Position numbers and translations under genes: made by a program
Notes under the pieces: generated by a model
Seen by the model: only the letters and a program-made list of their open reading frames with translations
The model's database searches: none
What the model was told of the DNA's origin: nothing
In this document: in pieces, positions 2,166 through 9,402 of the stretch
Layout: every line of letters starts with the position of its first letter
How positions within the stretch are numbered: the stretch's first letter is position 1
Assembly (NCBI GenBank): GCA_913053915.1
Contig: CAJXGP010000041.1
Location: 1 to 9,765, forward strand
From: an uncultured Ignavibacteriales bacterium
GTDB taxonomy: Bacteria > Bacteroidota > Ignavibacteria > Ignavibacteriales > Ignavibacteriaceae
Direction of reading: 5' to 3'
DNA: 9,765 nucleotides

Positions 2166-3031
2166 TACATCAAGCGATTAAAGATTTATTAGGGAAGTAC
2201 AATTTAAAATCAACAGTAGATTATGAGAATGCGTTAAAAGAGATTATTCAACAGGCAACCCTGGCAGGGTTATGGAGAGCCGGTTTTTTTAACCATTCTG
2301 CTTTTTACGGTGGCACGGCACTGCGAATATTTTATGGTTTACAACGTTTTTCGGAAGATTTAGATTTTACATTGTTAAAACCACAATCAGAATTTAATTT
2401 CAATAAAGATTTTGTAGCTATTGAGGAAGAACTTTCAAGTCTTGGGTTTTCTGTTGAAATTTCAGAAAAGAAAAAAAGTATTGAAAGCAATATTGAATCG
2501 GCATTTATTAAAGCAGATACAGTAATTAACATTATTCAAGTGGGTGCACCTGCAGACATTGTAAATCTAATTCCCAAAGGCAAATTCATAAAAGTGAAAT
2601 TTGAAGTCGATTTAAATCCGCCCGGTACTTTTGAAACAGAAAATAAATTTTTATTAGAACCTATACCTTGCAGTATAAAGCTAATTTCCCCATCCTATCT
2701 ATTTGCCGGGAAAATGCATGCAATGCTCTTTAGAAAATGGAAAAACAGGGTAAAAGGTAGGGATTGGTACGATTTTGCTTGGTTCGTTCGCATGGGTATC
2801 CCCTTGGAATTAAAACATCTTTATAGTAGGATGGTGCAATCTCAAAAATATGATAAGAGGAATAAGTTTAGAAGAGAAGATCTTATGGAATTATTCACTT
2901 TTGCTATAAATAACTTGGATGTTGAAAAAGCAAAAAGAGATGTTTTACCATTTATTAAAAACAGCAATGAACTTGATATTTGGTCACAAGATTATTTTAA
3001 GCAATTATTTGAAAAAATGATAATTAATTAA
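2162..3031 (+). CDS. abiEii: AbiEii-family nucleotidyltransferase toxin (DUF1814)
   Basis: A 289-residue nucleotidyltransferase-like toxin of the AbiEii/MenT type. These toxins transfer nucleotides to an RNA target (tRNA in studied homologues) and block growth. Motif I is YGGTALRIFYG (residues 49-59) with SEDLDFTL (64-71) giving the D66/D68 metal pair. A third acidic strand is KFEVDLNPPG (146-155). AGKMHA (182-187) and GRDWYDF (199-205) match the conserved lysine and the late RDxYD motif of the family. Length is typical and no key residue is missing. It overlaps abiEi by 4 nt. The last codons and the TAA stop (3029-3031) fall inside the sequence shared with the downstream repeat copy, so the cassette boundary touches the gene end. 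Substrate here is unknown. Confidence 0.9.
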   Translation: MIHQAIKDLLGKYNLKSTVDYENALKEIIQQATLAGLWRAGFFNHSAFYGGTALRIFYGLQRFSEDLDFTLLKPQSEFNFNKDFVAIEEELSSLGFSVEISEKKKSIESNIESAFIKADTVINIIQVGAPADIVNLIPKGKFIKVKFEVDLNPPGTFETENKFLLEPIPCSIKLISPSYLFAGKMHAMLFRKWKNRVKGRDWYDFAWFVRMGIPLELKHLYSRMVQSQKYDKRNKFRREDLMELFTFAINNLDVEKAKRDVLPFIKNSNELDIWSQDYFKQLFEKMIIN

Positions 3032-3370
3032 ATGCAGACTTGCCCACCTGAGGCGGGCATTGCCCGCCTTAGGCAGGTTAATAGAACTTCTTTATATTTA
3101 ACACGAATCTTTTTTGATACCTGCTTTCGCCGAAACACCTGTCCGCCGTAAGACTTTGGGAAGCGGGGCTTCGTGCAGGCAGGTAGCAATATTAATTATT
3201 TCATTTATCCTCTCTGCTTATCTTTCTGTACCAAGCTATGATTTTTTCAAAAATGTTAACGCACAATTTTTGCTGCTTTCTTTATCCGTCAGATGCCGGA
3301 TTTTCAATCCGTCAATGGCCGGATTTTCAATACGACGATTTCCGTTCAAGGAATTTCAGTCACGAGTTTA
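3022..3370 (+). repeat. Composite repeat, copy 3
   Basis: Positions 3022-3190 match 839-1007 base for base as far as I can read. They include the hairpin (3046-3078) and the 68-nt inverted-repeat element (3118-3185). Positions 3191-3284 match 1008-1106 with many differences, mostly at third codon positions of one frame. The doublet (3285-3330) and tail follow directly, without the palindromic block seen in copy 2. It lies between AbiEii and the remains of the glycosyltransferase gene and probably marks the site where that gene lost its 5' end. Confidence 0.85.
3285..3330 (+). repeat. 23-nt doublet of repeat copy 3
   Basis: The AGATG-type unit (3285-3307) is followed by the AATGG-type unit (3308-3330), the same order as copy 1 (5-50). 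Two units without unique spacers do not make a CRISPR. Confidence 0.85.
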
Positions 3371-4842: not shown

Positions 4843-6585
4843 ATGAAAGCTAAACTATTTACCTTTTTACTTTTAACTGGTTACTTTTTACTTTTAACTG
4901 GTTACTTATCCGCACAAACCGTTTACGAGCCTCTTTATAAAGACGTTTACAAGTACTTGGACAGAATGGCTCAGAAAGGAGTAATTGAACTAAACGACCA
5001 AATCAAACCTTTAACCAGAATATATATCGCGGAAAAGCTTTTGGAAATAGGAAAGAGAGCTAGGGAAATAAGGAATAGGGAGATAACGGAAGTCGAAAGG
5101 GATGAGTTAAATTTTTATTTGAAGGACTTTGGGGAAGAAATAAGTATGATCAATACGAAAAATAAACCTGGCTCCGTTAAGGCTGTGCCGGGCGAGCGGC
5201 AAAAGATAAAATCTTTTAATTCCCTGTCCGACCTTCGACGGATCCGTTATTCAAAATTATTCGGAAAAGATAGATTCGGTCGATGGCGTTTGTTTTCTTT
5301 TTCAAGTAATTTATTTAAAATAAATTTAAGTCCTATCCTTGGTTACCAAATCGGCAGTAACGATAATGCTTATCAAACACACAGATGGAACGGTGCATAT
5401 TTTTACGGCTACTTTTCGGATAATATCGGGTTCAGCTTTGACTTTAGGGACAACGCCGAAACCGGAGTCAATATTGACAGAACCAAAAGCTTTACGCCTG
5501 TAACGGGTATCACAATTGCAAAAGCAAATAAGGACAAAATTGAATACAGTGAAATTCACACGACACTGTCCACCAACTGGTCGTGGGGAGAGATTACCGT
5601 AGGCAAAGATTTTCTGCAATGGGGACAGGCTAAAAGCGGACAGCTCGTACTTTCGCAGAAAGCACCTTCCTTTCCGTTTATTAGATTGGATATTCGTCCG
5701 ACAAGCTGGTTGAGATTCAACTATATCCACGGCTGGCTGAATTCTGATGTAATAGACTCGAATGCAATATATGCCACAAAACGTTTGGGACAAAACAGGA
5801 CCATATTCAGAGATAAATATCTCGCCTCTCATACGTTAACCATCACTCCTTCAAAAGGATTGGATATCTCTTTGGGAGAATCTATTGTTTACAGCGACAG
5901 ATTGGAAGTTTCCTATTTAATGCCGCTGATGTTCTTCCGTTTGGCAGATCATTATTTAAGCAGAGCCAATAACAATGCCGGGGATAATTCACAGTTTTTT
6001 CTTGGGGTCAGTTCAAGAAATTTTATAAAAAATACGCACCTGTACGGAACATTATTTATTGATGAAATAAGAACTGAAGGACTCTTCGACCCAAAGAAAC
6101 AGAGGAATCAATTCGGTTTTACTTTGGGTGGTTCGGTTGTAGATTTACCAATTGAAAATTTAACACTCACTACCGAATTTACAAAAATATTTCCTTTTGT
6201 TTATACTCATTTTATTCCCACACAGACTTATGAAAGTTCCTCGTACCGACTTGGTCACTGGATGGGTAACAATGCGGATTTAATTTACGGAGCTATTAAC
6301 TATAGATTTATGAGAGGTTTACAAGCAACAATTTGGGGGCAATATATTCGAAAAGGTGGAGCGGGCACAGTAGATCAGCAGTATACATTACCTTCTCAAC
6401 CGTTTCTTTTCGGCTTGCGTACCAACTATACTTATTTTGGATTTGAAGCAAAGTATGAAATTACCTACGATTTATTTGCAAGGGCAAAATTTTTGTATTC
6501 CAAGGTTTCCAAGGAACAAACAAACGGAACATTTATAAACAATTCTAAGAATGAGTTTAGATTTGCATTGTATTATGGCCTGTAA
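4843..6585 (+). CDS. Wzi-like capsule assembly outer-membrane protein
   Basis: A protein of about 580 residues with a signal peptide and the character of a capsule-assembly Wzi family beta-barrel, which helps anchor or export surface polysaccharide at the outer membrane. I start it at the ATG at 4843, because this gives a clean signal peptide (MKAKLF, hydrophobic core, LSAQ cleavage) and has AAAGG 10 nt upstream. An earlier TTG at 4753 would add 30 residues of non-signal sequence. Residues 26-100 form a charged helical segment (YKYLDRMAQKGVIEL). The rest alternates short aromatic, amphipathic strands typical of a barrel, including WSWGEITVGKDFLQWG and YLMPLMFFRLADHYL, and ends in LYYGL. It follows the broken glycosyltransferase on the same strand and ends just before a strong terminator. 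Family call is good; substrate unknown. Confidence 0.8.
   Translation: MKAKLFTFLLLTGYFLLLTGYLSAQTVYEPLYKDVYKYLDRMAQKGVIELNDQIKPLTRIYIAEKLLEIGKRAREIRNREITEVERDELNFYLKDFGEEISMINTKNKPGSVKAVPGERQKIKSFNSLSDLRRIRYSKLFGKDRFGRWRLFSFSSNLFKINLSPILGYQIGSNDNAYQTHRWNGAYFYGYFSDNIGFSFDFRDNAETGVNIDRTKSFTPVTGITIAKANKDKIEYSEIHTTLSTNWSWGEITVGKDFLQWGQAKSGQLVLSQKAPSFPFIRLDIRPTSWLRFNYIHGWLNSDVIDSNAIYATKRLGQNRTIFRDKYLASHTLTITPSKGLDISLGESIVYSDRLEVSYLMPLMFFRLADHYLSRANNNAGDNSQFFLGVSSRNFIKNTHLYGTLFIDEIRTEGLFDPKKQRNQFGFTLGGSVVDLPIENLTLTTEFTKIFPFVYTHFIPTQTYESSSYRLGHWMGNNADLIYGAINYRFMRGLQATIWGQYIRKGGAGTVDQQYTLPSQPFLFGLRTNYTYFGFEAKYEITYDLFARAKFLYSKVSKEQTNGTFINNSKNEFRFALYYGL
4864..4905 (+). repeat. 21-nt tandem duplication in the signal peptide
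   Basis: Positions 4864-4884 and 4885-4905 are identical, in frame, and duplicate FLLLTGY in the hydrophobic core. The duplication lengthens the core without breaking it. Confidence 0.9.
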
Positions 6586-6609
6586 TTCATAGCCAATTCT
6601 AATAGTATT

Positions 6610-6647
6610 AAAAAAGCCTCAATATTAAAAACATTGAGGCTTTTTTT
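6610..6647 (+). terminator. Intrinsic terminator of the Wzi-like gene
   Basis: AGCCTCAAT (6615-6623) pairs perfectly with ATTGAGGCT (6633-6641) around a 9-nt loop, with an A-run before and seven Ts after. The A-run also makes it usable from the opposite strand. It lies 25 nt after the stop codon. Confidence 0.92.
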
Positions 6648-6727
6648 GTTGGCGGAGAGATAGTGCCAGACTACGTCCGGTATTCTATGATAAAATCAAG
6701 TCCAAAAAACAAAAGTTATTAACAAAA

Positions 6728-7723
6728 TTATGCACAATAAGCTAACGTATCAACGTAAGGAGTTCCTCTTCTAACAACAGCAAACATTCTTGATAGCAAC
6801 TTATTTCTAACAATATTTATAGTTCCCATTTTAGATTTTCCATCAGCAATTCTTCTTTCATAGTATAACTTCATTTCACTATTCCATTGAATAGATGATT
6901 TTGCACATAAGTCAAGCAGAGATTTTATTTTTTTGTTAGCGAGATTGTTTACCTTGGTTTTACCTCGTATGCTTATGCCTGAAGTGTTTGGAAATGGCGC
7001 TATTCCACAATATGAAGCAAACTTACGCCAAGTCTCAAAACGAGTAAACCCACCGGTATATGCAATCATAAATAATGCGGTCTTTTGACCTATTCCCTTA
7101 ATACTTGTGAGTAATTTGTATAACTTCTTAAGATTTTCATCATTATCAACTATATCCATTAAATTATTTTCAATTTTATTAATTTGTTTTGTCAGTTCAT
7201 TAATCATCTTTTCATGCACAGAGAACAATGTAGTGTTTTCCTTGCGTTTAAGAAATCTTTTATACTCGCATAGTGTTGCCTTGTACCCGGAACGCTGCTT
7301 AACCAACTTTTCTCGCAAATTTAACAAACTTTTAATCTCCTTTATATTTTTGCTTGGTAGTTCGTATGGTTTTAGTTCGTCTTTCCTTCGGTAAGTATAT
7401 AATGCTATTTTCTTTGCATCTATCTTATCATCTTTTCCTCGTGTTATACCCATTGAACGCCTTATTTCCAGTCCGGGTAGCATTACGTAATTAAATCCGT
7501 TTTCTGTCAGATATACCGATATTTGTTGCGAGTATATACCCGTATGCTCAAATGCAAATAATATTTGTTCTTTCGCGTAATTGCTTGACGCTAATGTCCA
7601 TTTTATCATCGATGTAATTCCTGTTACAGTATTATCAAAATTTTTATATTTTTGATTAGTATGGATACGAACCTCATTTTTCATTTTTCCAACATCAATG
7701 CCTACTGTTTCTTTAATTTTCAT
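6728..7723 (-). CDS. IS110-family DEDD transposase (RNA-guided recombinase)
   Basis: A 331-residue transposase of the IS110 family, which recombines DNA using a RuvC-like DEDD domain plus a serine-bearing C-terminal domain. The DEDD residues are visible: D10 in VGIDVGK, E59 in FAFEHTG, and D99 and D102 in KDDKIDAKK. A coiled-coil-like lysine-rich helix spans about 125-200. A helix-hairpin-helix-like motif follows (LTSIKGIGQKTA, 205-216), then the Transposase_20 domain with YCGIAPFPNTSGISIRGK. S248 in TSG is the likely catalytic serine. The start is supported by a near-perfect AGGAGGT (7727-7733) close before the ATG. No frameshift or missing key residue is visible, so it may be active. The upstream leader holds the probable guide RNA. 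Confidence 0.95.
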   Translation of the reverse strand: MKIKETVGIDVGKMKNEVRIHTNQKYKNFDNTVTGITSMIKWTLASSNYAKEQILFAFEHTGIYSQQISVYLTENGFNYVMLPGLEIRRSMGITRGKDDKIDAKKIALYTYRRKDELKPYELPSKNIKEIKSLLNLREKLVKQRSGYKATLCEYKRFLKRKENTTLFSVHEKMINELTKQINKIENNLMDIVDNDENLKKLYKLLTSIKGIGQKTALFMIAYTGGFTRFETWRKFASYCGIAPFPNTSGISIRGKTKVNNLANKKIKSLLDLCAKSSIQWNSEMKLYYERRIADGKSKMGTINIVRNKLLSRMFAVVRRGTPYVDTLAYCA

Positions 7724-7747
7724 ATTACCTCCTTTGTCTTTTATTTT

Positions 7748-7886
7748 GGTTACTTAAACTAAAACCTTTATTAGGTCATTCTATAATTCTATCTGGTTCT
7801 CAGTAACCTTGTAAAATGAATGAGGACTAATACCGGACATAGGTCTTTTTCCCTAGCAGCTGCCAAAGTTCACCTCACTCATGGTT
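7748..7886 (-). ncRNA. Candidate IS110 bridge RNA
   Basis: IS110 elements encode a structured bridge RNA in the non-coding end before the transposase, with one loop pairing to target DNA and another to donor DNA. Here the leader forms two large stem-loops. Stem 1 pairs 7873-7882 with 7816-7825 (10 bp, one G-U) and encloses about 47 nt. Stem 2 pairs 7802-7808 with 7748-7754 (GGTTACT/AGTAACC), with an inner GAACC/GGTTT stem. Loop 1 contains CUAUGUCCGG (from 7842-7833), which can pair with the flank and core at 6671-6680 with one G-U. Loop 2 contains AUAGAAUGACC, nearly the element end AUAGAAUACC next to the core (6679-6688 reversed). A promoter lies just upstream. The left target guide was not identified, and the ends are estimates. 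Confidence 0.6.
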
Positions 7887-7892
7887 GTAATA

Positions 7893-7921
7893 AATTTATT
7901 AACATTTTTTGAACTTATCAA
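7893..7921 (-). promoter_or_regulatory. Promoter candidate for the bridge RNA and transposase
   Basis: Read on the - strand: TTGATA (7921-7916), a 17-nt spacer, TAAATT (7898-7893). Transcription would start near 7886, a few bases before the first stem of the RNA. This agreement with the predicted structure supports both calls. Confidence 0.5.
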
Positions 7922-8008
7922 TACTCCCCAGATCCCTGTTTATAATTATTGATTTTTAATATATTTACTTTTGTAATCTAAAGGCTGCTACCGGACTCAT
8001 TTATTACT

Positions 8009-8350
8009 TTAAGAAGAATTGCTGCCGATAATTCCATCAGCCGGTGTAATCTCAAAGGCAATCTGTGCAAGCCGGGCGCCTGTCCGCACGCCCATATTTA
8101 CACATGTATCAAAAATATTTTCAGCCGCAATTTGGGAGTTTATTTCATCCCCGCGAATTCTATCCCAATAGTCGCGTTTATAAATATCCCGTGCATCTGC
8201 TTCGGTAATATTGCGAATGTTAAGATTCGGATAAGCCCTTTGAGAAATACCGTATTTTGTTGCACCACCCGGATCATCACGGTCATCGGTATATTTAGCC
8301 CCTCCTTCTCGAGCTAATGTTTTTACTATTGCTGTGTTAAAATCTGCCAT
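8009..8350 (-). pseudogene. GH108 lysozyme-like muramidase, 3'-truncated
   Basis: The reading frame gives 113 residues of the GH108 family (N-acetylmuramidase-like endolysins and secretion activators), enzymes that cut peptidoglycan. LAREGGAKYTDDRDDPGGATKYGISQ (from residue 12) holds the family core with the catalytic Glu in EGG (E15). NITEADARDIYKRDYWDRIRGDEI and FDTCVNMGV also match the family. The ATG has a strong GGAGGG (8354-8359) in front. Normal members are roughly 160-200 residues; here the frame stops right after ADGIIG, where the peptidoglycan-binding tail should begin. The next frame reads AAILLKVINES at that point, so a small frameshift is possible. The IS110 end lies about 15 nt beyond the stop. 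The gene is probably a phage remnant and may lack full function. Confidence 0.75.
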
Positions 8351-8837: not shown

Positions 8838-9116
8838 TTATGCTGAATTTCTTAACTCGTTGTCAATTCTTTCTTTCAAAATTATTTTTATTAGAGATTG
8901 ATAAGGAACATCTCTTTTATGTGCAATTACCTTGATATCATTTAGTAAGAATTCCGGAAGTCTTAACGAAATAGTTTTTGTGGAAGGTCTTAAGTTAGGA
9001 AAAGCAGTCAATTTGGATTTTCCCCAATCAATGAAATCTGATGAATCATTGTTAGCCCAGAATTCTCTTTCTTCTTTTTCGTTCTTAAATTTCGGTATGT
9101 TTTTTAATTTCTTCAT
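8838..9116 (-). CDS. brnA: BrnA-family antitoxin
   Basis: A 92-residue BrnA antitoxin, which binds BrnT toxin and represses the shared promoter through its ribbon-helix-helix domain. The N-terminal half, with KNEKEEREFWANNDSSDFIDW (about residues 12-32), is the toxin-wrapping part seen in the family. The C-terminal half, TKTISLRLPEFLLNDIKVIAHKRDVPYQSLIKIIL, is the DNA-binding ribbon-helix-helix. The start lies inside brnT (32-nt overlap in another frame), and AAAGGA is visible about 9 nt before it. Toxin first, antitoxin second is the normal order for this system. Complete and undamaged. Confidence 0.9.
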   Translation of the reverse strand: MKKLKNIPKFKNEKEEREFWANNDSSDFIDWGKSKLTAFPNLRPSTKTISLRLPEFLLNDIKVIAHKRDVPYQSLIKIILKERIDNELRNSA

Positions 9117-9402
9117 TGTATATTTTCCTTTCCCTTTTGGTCATATCTCTTGCAGAAATAACTCTTATTATTTTGTTTCTAATAGTAAAAACAATAAATA
9201 GTTTTCTATCTAACTCAGTTCGTCCTAAGACGAACCATCGTTTTTCTTTTTGAGAATGTTTAACATCGTCAGCAATAATCAAAGGCTCATTAAAGAAAAC
9301 TAGCTCACATTCACTATTAAGAACTTTATGCTTCTGCCGGTTCTTCTCAATGTTTTCTTTATCCCATTGAAAACCTTTAATATCATCAAGATTATTTTTC
9401 AT
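9085..9402 (-). CDS. brnT: BrnT-family ribonuclease toxin
   Basis: A 105-residue BrnT toxin, a RelE-fold ribonuclease that inhibits translation when freed from BrnA. FQWDKENIEKNRQKHKV (residues 11-27) is the family start motif. The core follows: FFNEPLI, RWFVLGRTELDRKLFIVFT, then the C-terminal IRVISARDMTKRERKIY, whose RVISAR motif is the family hallmark carrying active-site residues. No strong Shine-Dalgarno sequence precedes the ATG. A small inverted repeat (ATACA AA TGTAT, 9401-9412) overlaps the start and could be part of the BrnA operator. The preceding 9403-9508 gap is AT-rich and should hold the promoter. Intact. Confidence 0.9.
   Translation of the reverse strand: MKNNLDDIKGFQWDKENIEKNRQKHKVLNSECELVFFNEPLIIADDVKHSQKEKRWFVLGRTELDRKLFIVFTIRNKIIRVISARDMTKRERKIYNEEIKKHTEI

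Follow-up and report, generated by a model that had tools for sequence, protein, structure and literature searches.

The analyzed stretch of DNA (9,765 nucleotides; hereafter, the window) almost certainly carries an intact IS110-group insertion sequence with a leader that encodes a two-loop bridge RNA, loop 1 reading the target and loop 2 the donor, and would form a circle, exchange strands, and use a handshake as IS621 does. The anatomy, the guide assignments, and the agreement between donor guides and donor ends are established by sequence comparison with relatives, which also shows that the two flanks of the target are both matched by loop 1, over 9 and 6 nt with one C in common. The element is of a known type and is ordinary apart from a modest departure at the level of its clade. 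We favor the view that IS110 elements of this Bacteroidota/Chlorobiota clade have cut the shared core to a single base, a near-invariant C where IS621 has T (position 9), and that position 8 has thereby been freed to join a four-base handshake guide fixed to the element's own end. Positions are numbered as in IS621 (PMC11208158), in which the left target is 1 to 7, the core is 8 to 9, and the right target is 10 to 14.

The element, its recombinase, and its ends

The element is 1304 nt long, and its ends are kept across relatives. It and its surroundings comprise the following features:

6680..7983, minus strand: whole IS110-group element; 7983 is the first left-end base and 6680 is the shared C at the right end
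6728..7723, minus strand: DEDD/serine recombinase (transposase), 331 aa, intact; identified by Pfam and a 34-sequence profile
7984..7992, minus strand: left target flank GGTAGCAGC, positions 1 to 9; 7984 is the shared C
6675..6679, minus strand: right target flank CGGAC, positions 10 to 14; placed by the ends conserved in relatives
6680, minus strand: shared core base C, position 9, at the right end; C in 45 of 46 right ends
6681..6688, minus strand: left donor ATAGAATA at the right end, positions 1 to 8; from comparison of right ends
7979..7983, minus strand: right donor CTTTA at the left end, positions 10 to 14; from anchor comparison

Both Pfam domains of the recombinase match above the Pfam cutoffs (DEDD_Tnp_IS110, 1.5e-22; Transposase_20, 1.8e-20), and the best 120 of its 2710 homologues are 59 to 100% identical and nearly always 331 aa long, which is why it looks intact. 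The profile of 34 sequences also matches the recombinases of IS621 and ISCro4, with an E value of about 1e-25. In a by-eye alignment, D10, E59, D102, and S248 of the window recombinase correspond to D11, E60, D105, and S241 of IS621, and its D99 corresponds to a further IS621 residue, D102. All five window residues are invariant in the alignment of relatives (A1). D11, E60, D105, and S241 are the residues named for IS621 in PMC11208158. The layout of the IS110 group is also present, with a long noncoding left end of 260 nt (7724-7983) and a short right end of 48 nt (6680-6727).

A pattern search of genome contigs gave 158 matches. Relatives of the recombinase are encoded at 115 of these, and the best 80 of the 115 loci were retained for comparison. 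Judged by their titles, the hosts are mostly Bacteroidota, with some Chlorobiota and Marinimicrobia, and the closest of them, L001, with a recombinase 99% identical to that of the window, is in a Chlorobiota MAG. No relatives were found among viral contigs, and a search of 1605 plasmid records gave no relative at 60% identity or above.

In the relatives, the left end begins CTTTAGATT and the right end closes with (C)ATAGAATAC, and at both termini the inner sides are fixed while the outer sides vary. Based on these conserved inner and variable outer sides, we place the element at 6680-7983, with the left boundary at 7983/7984; the bounds 6671..7886 given in a preliminary description of this DNA are replaced by these. 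The CCGG at 7990-7993 was considered as the element end and rejected because relatives begin at CTTTAG, which makes CCGG part of the flank (target). There are six inverted repeat pairs of at least 11 nt in 6400-8100, and none of the six joins the two element termini. The joined (empty) site of the window would be GAGTCCGGTAGCAGC-CGGACGTAGTC, in which a five-pair palindrome surrounds the junction; no unoccupied copy of this site was found.

On the outer side of the left boundary, a gene for a GH108 (peptidoglycan-active) protein of 113 aa with a nearly complete domain (8009-8350, minus strand) ends 25 nt ahead of the insertion site. Beside the right end, the flank at 6650-6662 reads TATCTCTCCGCCA on the minus strand, which to our eye resembles the 3' end of a serine tRNA; a tRNA search of the window called none.

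The bridge RNA and its guides

The leader upstream of the recombinase gene contains the following:

7739..7889, minus strand: bridge RNA region; matched by a covariance model built without the window
7873..7882, minus strand: stem 1 (target-binding loop), 5' strand; pairs with 7816-7825
7816..7825, minus strand: stem 1, 3' strand; partner of 7873-7882
7840..7855, minus strand: terminal hairpin of the target-binding loop, UAGG..CCUA; helix 3 in both structure tests
7802..7808, minus strand: stem 2 (donor-binding loop), 5' strand GGUUACU; helix 4
7748..7754, minus strand: stem 2, 3' strand AGUAACC; helix 4, with covariation in 26 relatives
7856..7864, minus strand: left target guide GGCAGCUGC, positions 1 to 9, for its own flank GGTAGCAGC; from the permutation test
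7833..7838, minus strand: right target guide GUCCGG, positions 14 to 9; from the permutation test
7829..7832, minus strand: handshake guide UAUU, the complement of AATA at the donor end (positions 8 to 5); from pairing and co-changes
7786..7792, minus strand: left donor guide AUAGAAU, positions 1 to 7; identical to the donor end
7765..7770, minus strand: candidate right donor guide UAAAGG; complementarity to CCTTTA (positions 9 to 14) seen

The preliminary description proposed an IS110 element with a bridge RNA and suggested a covariance model as a check. A model from 26 relatives, from which both the window and L001 were absent, matches the window at 7739-7889 with 136.7 bits (E value, 9.1e-29) and L001 with 136.2 bits; together with both Pfam domains and the agreement between guides and flanks, this bears the proposal out. 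At an E value of 0.01 the model matches 21 of the 23 sources searched, L084 weakly and L085 and L086 not at all. A search of the window against Rfam gave no match at gathering scores.

The two stem-loops of that description are also real, since both stems covary in relatives; single-sequence folding of the leader alone is weak (z score of -1.92, with 10 of 200 shuffles folding equally well). Altogether, 82 sequences were entered (80 loci, the window, and L083), with a usable match in 81 and a readable target loop in 67. Removing near duplicates and short leaders reduced these 67 to 54, and leaving out eight more gave 46 (alignment A2, window included). In A2, both sides change in 8 of the 10 pairs of stem 1, and RNAalifold predicts stem 1, the inner helix, and the hairpin; stem 2 is absent from that prediction. 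Over the entire structure and all 46 leaders, 97.1% of cells are paired, compared with 87.4% after shuffling and 35 to 57% after sliding, and for five measures shuffles did as well in 0 of 500 (three measures), 1 of 500, and 3 of 500 cases. The structure that includes stem 2 was drawn from A4, an alignment without the window for which 26 relatives were chosen by eye from the 45 in A2. In this structure 98.1% of cells pair, and both partners change in 14 of 24 pairs (0 of 500 shuffles for each; 2 of 500 for pair types), with both sides changing in 5 of the 6 pairs of stem 2; it was drawn from the same sequences, which favors the true register in the slid control. An alignment-free count finds a six-pair stem 2 in 42 of 46 rows, compared with a mean of 43% (maximum, 55%) with strands swapped; L004 and L026 are rows that failed through a misplaced anchor.

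Guides were compared with flanks among 58 distinct guide pairs, 45 of them usable on the left and 37 on the right. The left test set the ten bases after GUGAACUU against the ten flank bases preceding CTTTAG, and the right test set the eight bases preceding the handshake bases against the right flank. Cognate left guides match 6.38 of 10 positions and swapped ones 3.21 (0 of 20000 permutations; 45 elements), while cognate right guides match 5.78 of 8 and swapped ones 2.87 (0 of 20000; 37 elements). Shifting the register by one base removes most of the left signal (3.20 versus 2.50 and 3.24 versus 2.96) and all of the right signal. By position, the left guide matches at 53 to 76% over positions 1 to 8 (swapped, 24 to 38%) and ends at C9. 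The right guide matches at 84 to 97% over positions 9 to 14 in the 37 elements, or at 84 to 95% over positions 10 to 14, for which swapped pairs give 24 to 40%. At positions 15 to 19 the match is 8 to 24%, compared with 10 to 24% for swapped pairs, which is a sharp stop after position 14. Positions 1 to 14 are the 14-bp stretch that wedge residues bound in IS621 (PMC11208158).

These limits redefine the 14-nt match that had been noticed in the preliminary description. It is correct that 7829-7842 is inverted-complementary to 6671-6684 at 13 of 14 positions, with an odd position that can form G-U, and none of 20000 single-base shuffles of the 69-nt leader stretch 7815-7883 reached 13 of 14 against this boundary. 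Taken blindly over 1.7 kb the match is unremarkable, since a perfect 14-nt pair with no evident meaning is found there (6844-6857 and 8011-8024). As a right target guide, the six bases GUCCGG stand, the four bases at 7829-7832 belong to the handshake guide, and the four at 7839-7842 are unsupported. The latter face right-flank positions 15 to 18, lie in a hairpin/linker stretch, and have no family signal; because the guide signal stops after position 14, we attribute their match to chance in the window copy. A longer right guide over positions 15 to 18 was thus rejected. The left target guide was absent from the earlier reading.

The window's left guide fits its own flank GGTAGCAGC at 7 of 10 positions (8 with G-U), with two mismatches in nine. 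L001 carries guides identical to those of the window, and over nine bases the fit between its left flank GGCAGCCGC and GGCAGCUGC involves a single G-U pair; over ten bases the flank fits at 8, or at all 10 counting G-U. Its right flank CCGGAC agrees with the right guide as far as the contig end, and CGGAC fits fully. The earlier claim that one copy suffices to predict the target is therefore upheld by L001, and this copy, the only additional one with identical guides, is not at an unrelated flank. The predicted target of the window element is GGCAGCTGC followed by CGGAC, and with the target-reading bases corrected, the target of an uncharacterized IS110 element is readable from a single copy.

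Several copies depart from this pattern. The Flavivirga copies L018, L020, L021, and L023 match the left guide poorly at the expected place (the left flank of L023 is mis-anchored in the guide test, yet is counted as read); a sequence like the left guide is found a few nucleotides further out in these copies, at differing distances, and the right-flank match is kept. The right flanks of L025 and L067 misfit their own right guides, and CTTTA, like the element's own left end, stands there. 

Two relatives, L036 and L025, lie at the 3' end of what is presumably domain V of group II introns. Rfam Intron_gpII matches (L036:1372-1445 and L025:2192-2265) overlap their left junctions at 1408 and 2229, and the left guide of both, GUACGGUUC, reads the intron sequence. 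The inverted repeat GTCCGG(N6)CCGGAC was considered as a multicopy target in the L001 genome and gave no match; when the pattern was relaxed to allow 2 mismatches, there were 16 matches, compared with 3 for the reversed control.

In loop 2, the left donor guide is identical to the donor end in every one of the 55 elements that could be read, in four versions of the 7-mer, compared with 53% when swapped; TAG and the final T, 4 of the 7 bases, are set by the search patterns, which leave three free to vary. Twelve of the 67 elements were dropped to give these 55 rows, and an earlier 57-row version had six misread donor guides. The preliminary description was right that loop 2 holds a left donor guide and wrong about its location, since it pointed to AUAGAAUGACC at 7774-7784. 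We rejected that candidate because the family-conserved copy is at 7786-7792, while AUAGAAUGACC is in a variable stretch. The candidate right donor guide UAAAGG is invariant in A2, CCTTTA does not vary in the ends read, and the two are complementary.

The handshake guide and the shared core

The bases after the right guide are TATT in 46 of 67 elements and TATC in 11 of 67. All four pair with the donor end in 46 of 55 elements (swapped, 65%); the donor end barely varies, which makes the swap contrast small, and co-changes therefore carry the weight. At position 8, AATG occurs with CAUU (A8 to G8, U to C) in L067 and L072, and at position 6, ATTA occurs with UAAU (A6 to T6, U to A) in L056. The right guide of L056 fits its right flank, while that of L072 fits partially and that of L067 does not, which makes the right ends of the latter two less secure. 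Position 5 is weak (84% versus 77% swapped in the 57-row count): GATA occurs with UAUC in L035, L044, and L069, U is retained in L028 and L034, which gives a G-U pair, there is a mismatch in L024, and L006, L017, L053, L054, L055, and L057 have C or G opposite A with the donor unchanged. L010 has a mismatch at position 8. A corresponding pairing of the donor loop with the target was set aside, since the 37 elements compared gave no clear signal of it (46% versus 28% at best). The preliminary description had called the match on the inner side of the boundary unusual. It is not, because handshake guide UAUU faces donor end AATA, and handshake pairing is described for IS621 in PMC11208158. The handshake has so far been argued from IS621 and its orthologues, and this family offers a few co-changes.

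By analogy with IS621, the element would excise as a circle, and the right-left circle junction would make a promoter for the bridge RNA. Four recombinases and the RNA would hold donor and target, the top strands would be cut after position 9 and then exchanged, and handshake guide UAUU would pair with the incoming donor strand AATA. The right target guide and the handshake guide would together be complementary to the product junction, and this complementarity is the match that had been noticed at the outset. A possible part of the junction promoter is the following:

6697..6699, minus strand: TTG near the right end, candidate -33 element for a promoter at the circle junction; in 54 of 60 copies

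Across the 60 two-ended copies, in which CTTTAG itself served as the anchor, TTG stands 23 nt before TAnnTTTG, which we take to be the Bacteroidota-type promoter consensus, in 27 of the 31 left ends having this motif. This spacing suggests a Bacteroidota-type promoter at the circle junction. The left end of the window reads TAGATTAC, without the last bases of TAnnTTTG, and is outside the 31. The promoter that had been reported in the leader could not be singled out: the two strands of 6600-8050 together hold 12 promoter-like sites, compared with 6.8 ± 2.5 in shuffled sequence.

The window reads CC at positions 9 and 10 at both ends, so that by itself it decides neither core length; at the right end the second C is the target's, and at the left end it is the donor's. 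A dinucleotide core as in IS621 (CC in the window), with the one-base core arising from misplaced ends, would agree with this reading and with the dinucleotide that IS621 and its orthologues have in common (PMC11208160 and PMC11208158). We nonetheless regard it as unlikely, based on the relatives. Both ends could be read in 37 copies (not thinned); all 37 have C9 on the left, and 36 have it on the right. L005 has A at position 9 of the right end. At position 10, the first base of the left end is the donor's C in 49 of 50 copies with the loose anchor TTTAG[AG]TT (the exception, L023, is mis-anchored), while at the right end 42 of 46 copies carry the base that their right guide predicts. At position 8 the left side follows the target: A stands there in 10 of 37 copies, compared with 53 of 55 for the donor, a count for which the search pattern admitted A or G only. 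Finally, the L008 genome contains two empty copies of the element target with one C between the half-sites (0 to 3 bases were allowed), and one of these, L119, aligns without a gap to the flanks of L008 when they are joined, with 182 of 185 positions matching. The CT of IS621-like elements is thus not common to donor and target in this clade, which instead shares a single C; this agrees with a cut after position 9, where IS621 is also cut, and with C standing in place of T. A separate gapped search of four genomes for the unoccupied CCCAAATC/TTACCC target returned six matches, whose gaps were 0, 1, 2, or 3 nt, and was not used for core length.

Two further alternatives concern the RNA itself. 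The stem-loops could be an ordinary 5' untranslated regulatory structure that controls translation of the transposase, with the boundary match due to chance; the position directly before the start codon, the unremarkable single-sequence fold, and the further 14-nt inverted matches within 1.7 kb would all suit such a leader. Agreement of guides with flanks beyond any of 20000 permutations and of the left donor guide with every donor end read would be unexpected of it, which refutes it for the family, and the agreement in L001 refutes it for the window copy; we give it next to no weight. Alternatively, the target might be chosen mainly through palindromic DNA structure rather than guide pairing, which we consider very improbable. 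A perfect junction hairpin of at least 5 pairs is present in 10 of 46 joined targets, compared with 3.9% of swapped pairs, the window is among these targets (GTCCG-GTAGCAGC-CGGAC), and insertion of IS elements into REP palindromes has been published (PMC1525189). Against this, 36 of the 46 targets are without such a hairpin, while agreement with the guides is general.

Among journal papers, a literature search on the IS110 core dinucleotide and the handshake led only to PMC11208160 and PMC11208158, and a search on the IS110 target site and core in Bacteroid hosts found nothing. If the one-base core is real, donor and target need only one letter in common, and more sites can be chosen; should it hold in experiments, bridge recombinases need no donor-target dinucleotide in common.

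The Maribacter relative L008:313 sits in a palindromic repeat of which two unoccupied copies are found in the same genome (L118 and L119, around 1500). As a guess, the repeats at L008, L118, and L119 may be integron attC-like sites.

Known systems and the rest of the window

The closest comparison is the IS621 bridge RNA (PMC11208160 and PMC11208158), which likewise has an RNA upstream of the recombinase gene with two loops, a 9-nt left guide for the bottom strand, a right guide for the top strand followed by the handshake guide, a short right end and a long left end, and composite active-site residues. Its recombinase is distant (profile match, 1e-25). IS621 shares CT, while the window's clade shares one C at position 9; the handshake guide is complementary to two donor bases in IS621 and to four in the window's clade; and the right guide is 4 nt (8 to 11) in wild-type IS621 and 6 nt (9 to 14) in the window element. 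The ISCro4 recombinase (PDB 9t56), compared by protein alone, is an IS110 recombinase by sequence (E value, 2.3e-26) and is not clearly closer to that of the window than is the IS621 recombinase. The seekRNA of ISEc21 (IS110 family; PMC11187229) is similar in its upstream RNA, in a bottom-strand match 5' of a top-strand match, and in the lack of a target duplication. It differs in having another target, and donor-loop guides are absent from the parts of its description covered here. The IS1111 group has the recombinase superfamily and the RNA-guided principle in common with the window element; its RNA downstream of the gene and its long subterminal inverted repeats, as described in PMC11208160, are not seen in the window.

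Elsewhere in the window, a 290-nt direct repeat (823-1112 and 3006-3295; 93% identical) follows two toxin-antitoxin-like gene pairs, and a 93-nt repeat occurs at 1, 1225, and 3281. A CopG-type antitoxin and BrnT toxin pair is encoded at 8838-9402 on the minus strand.
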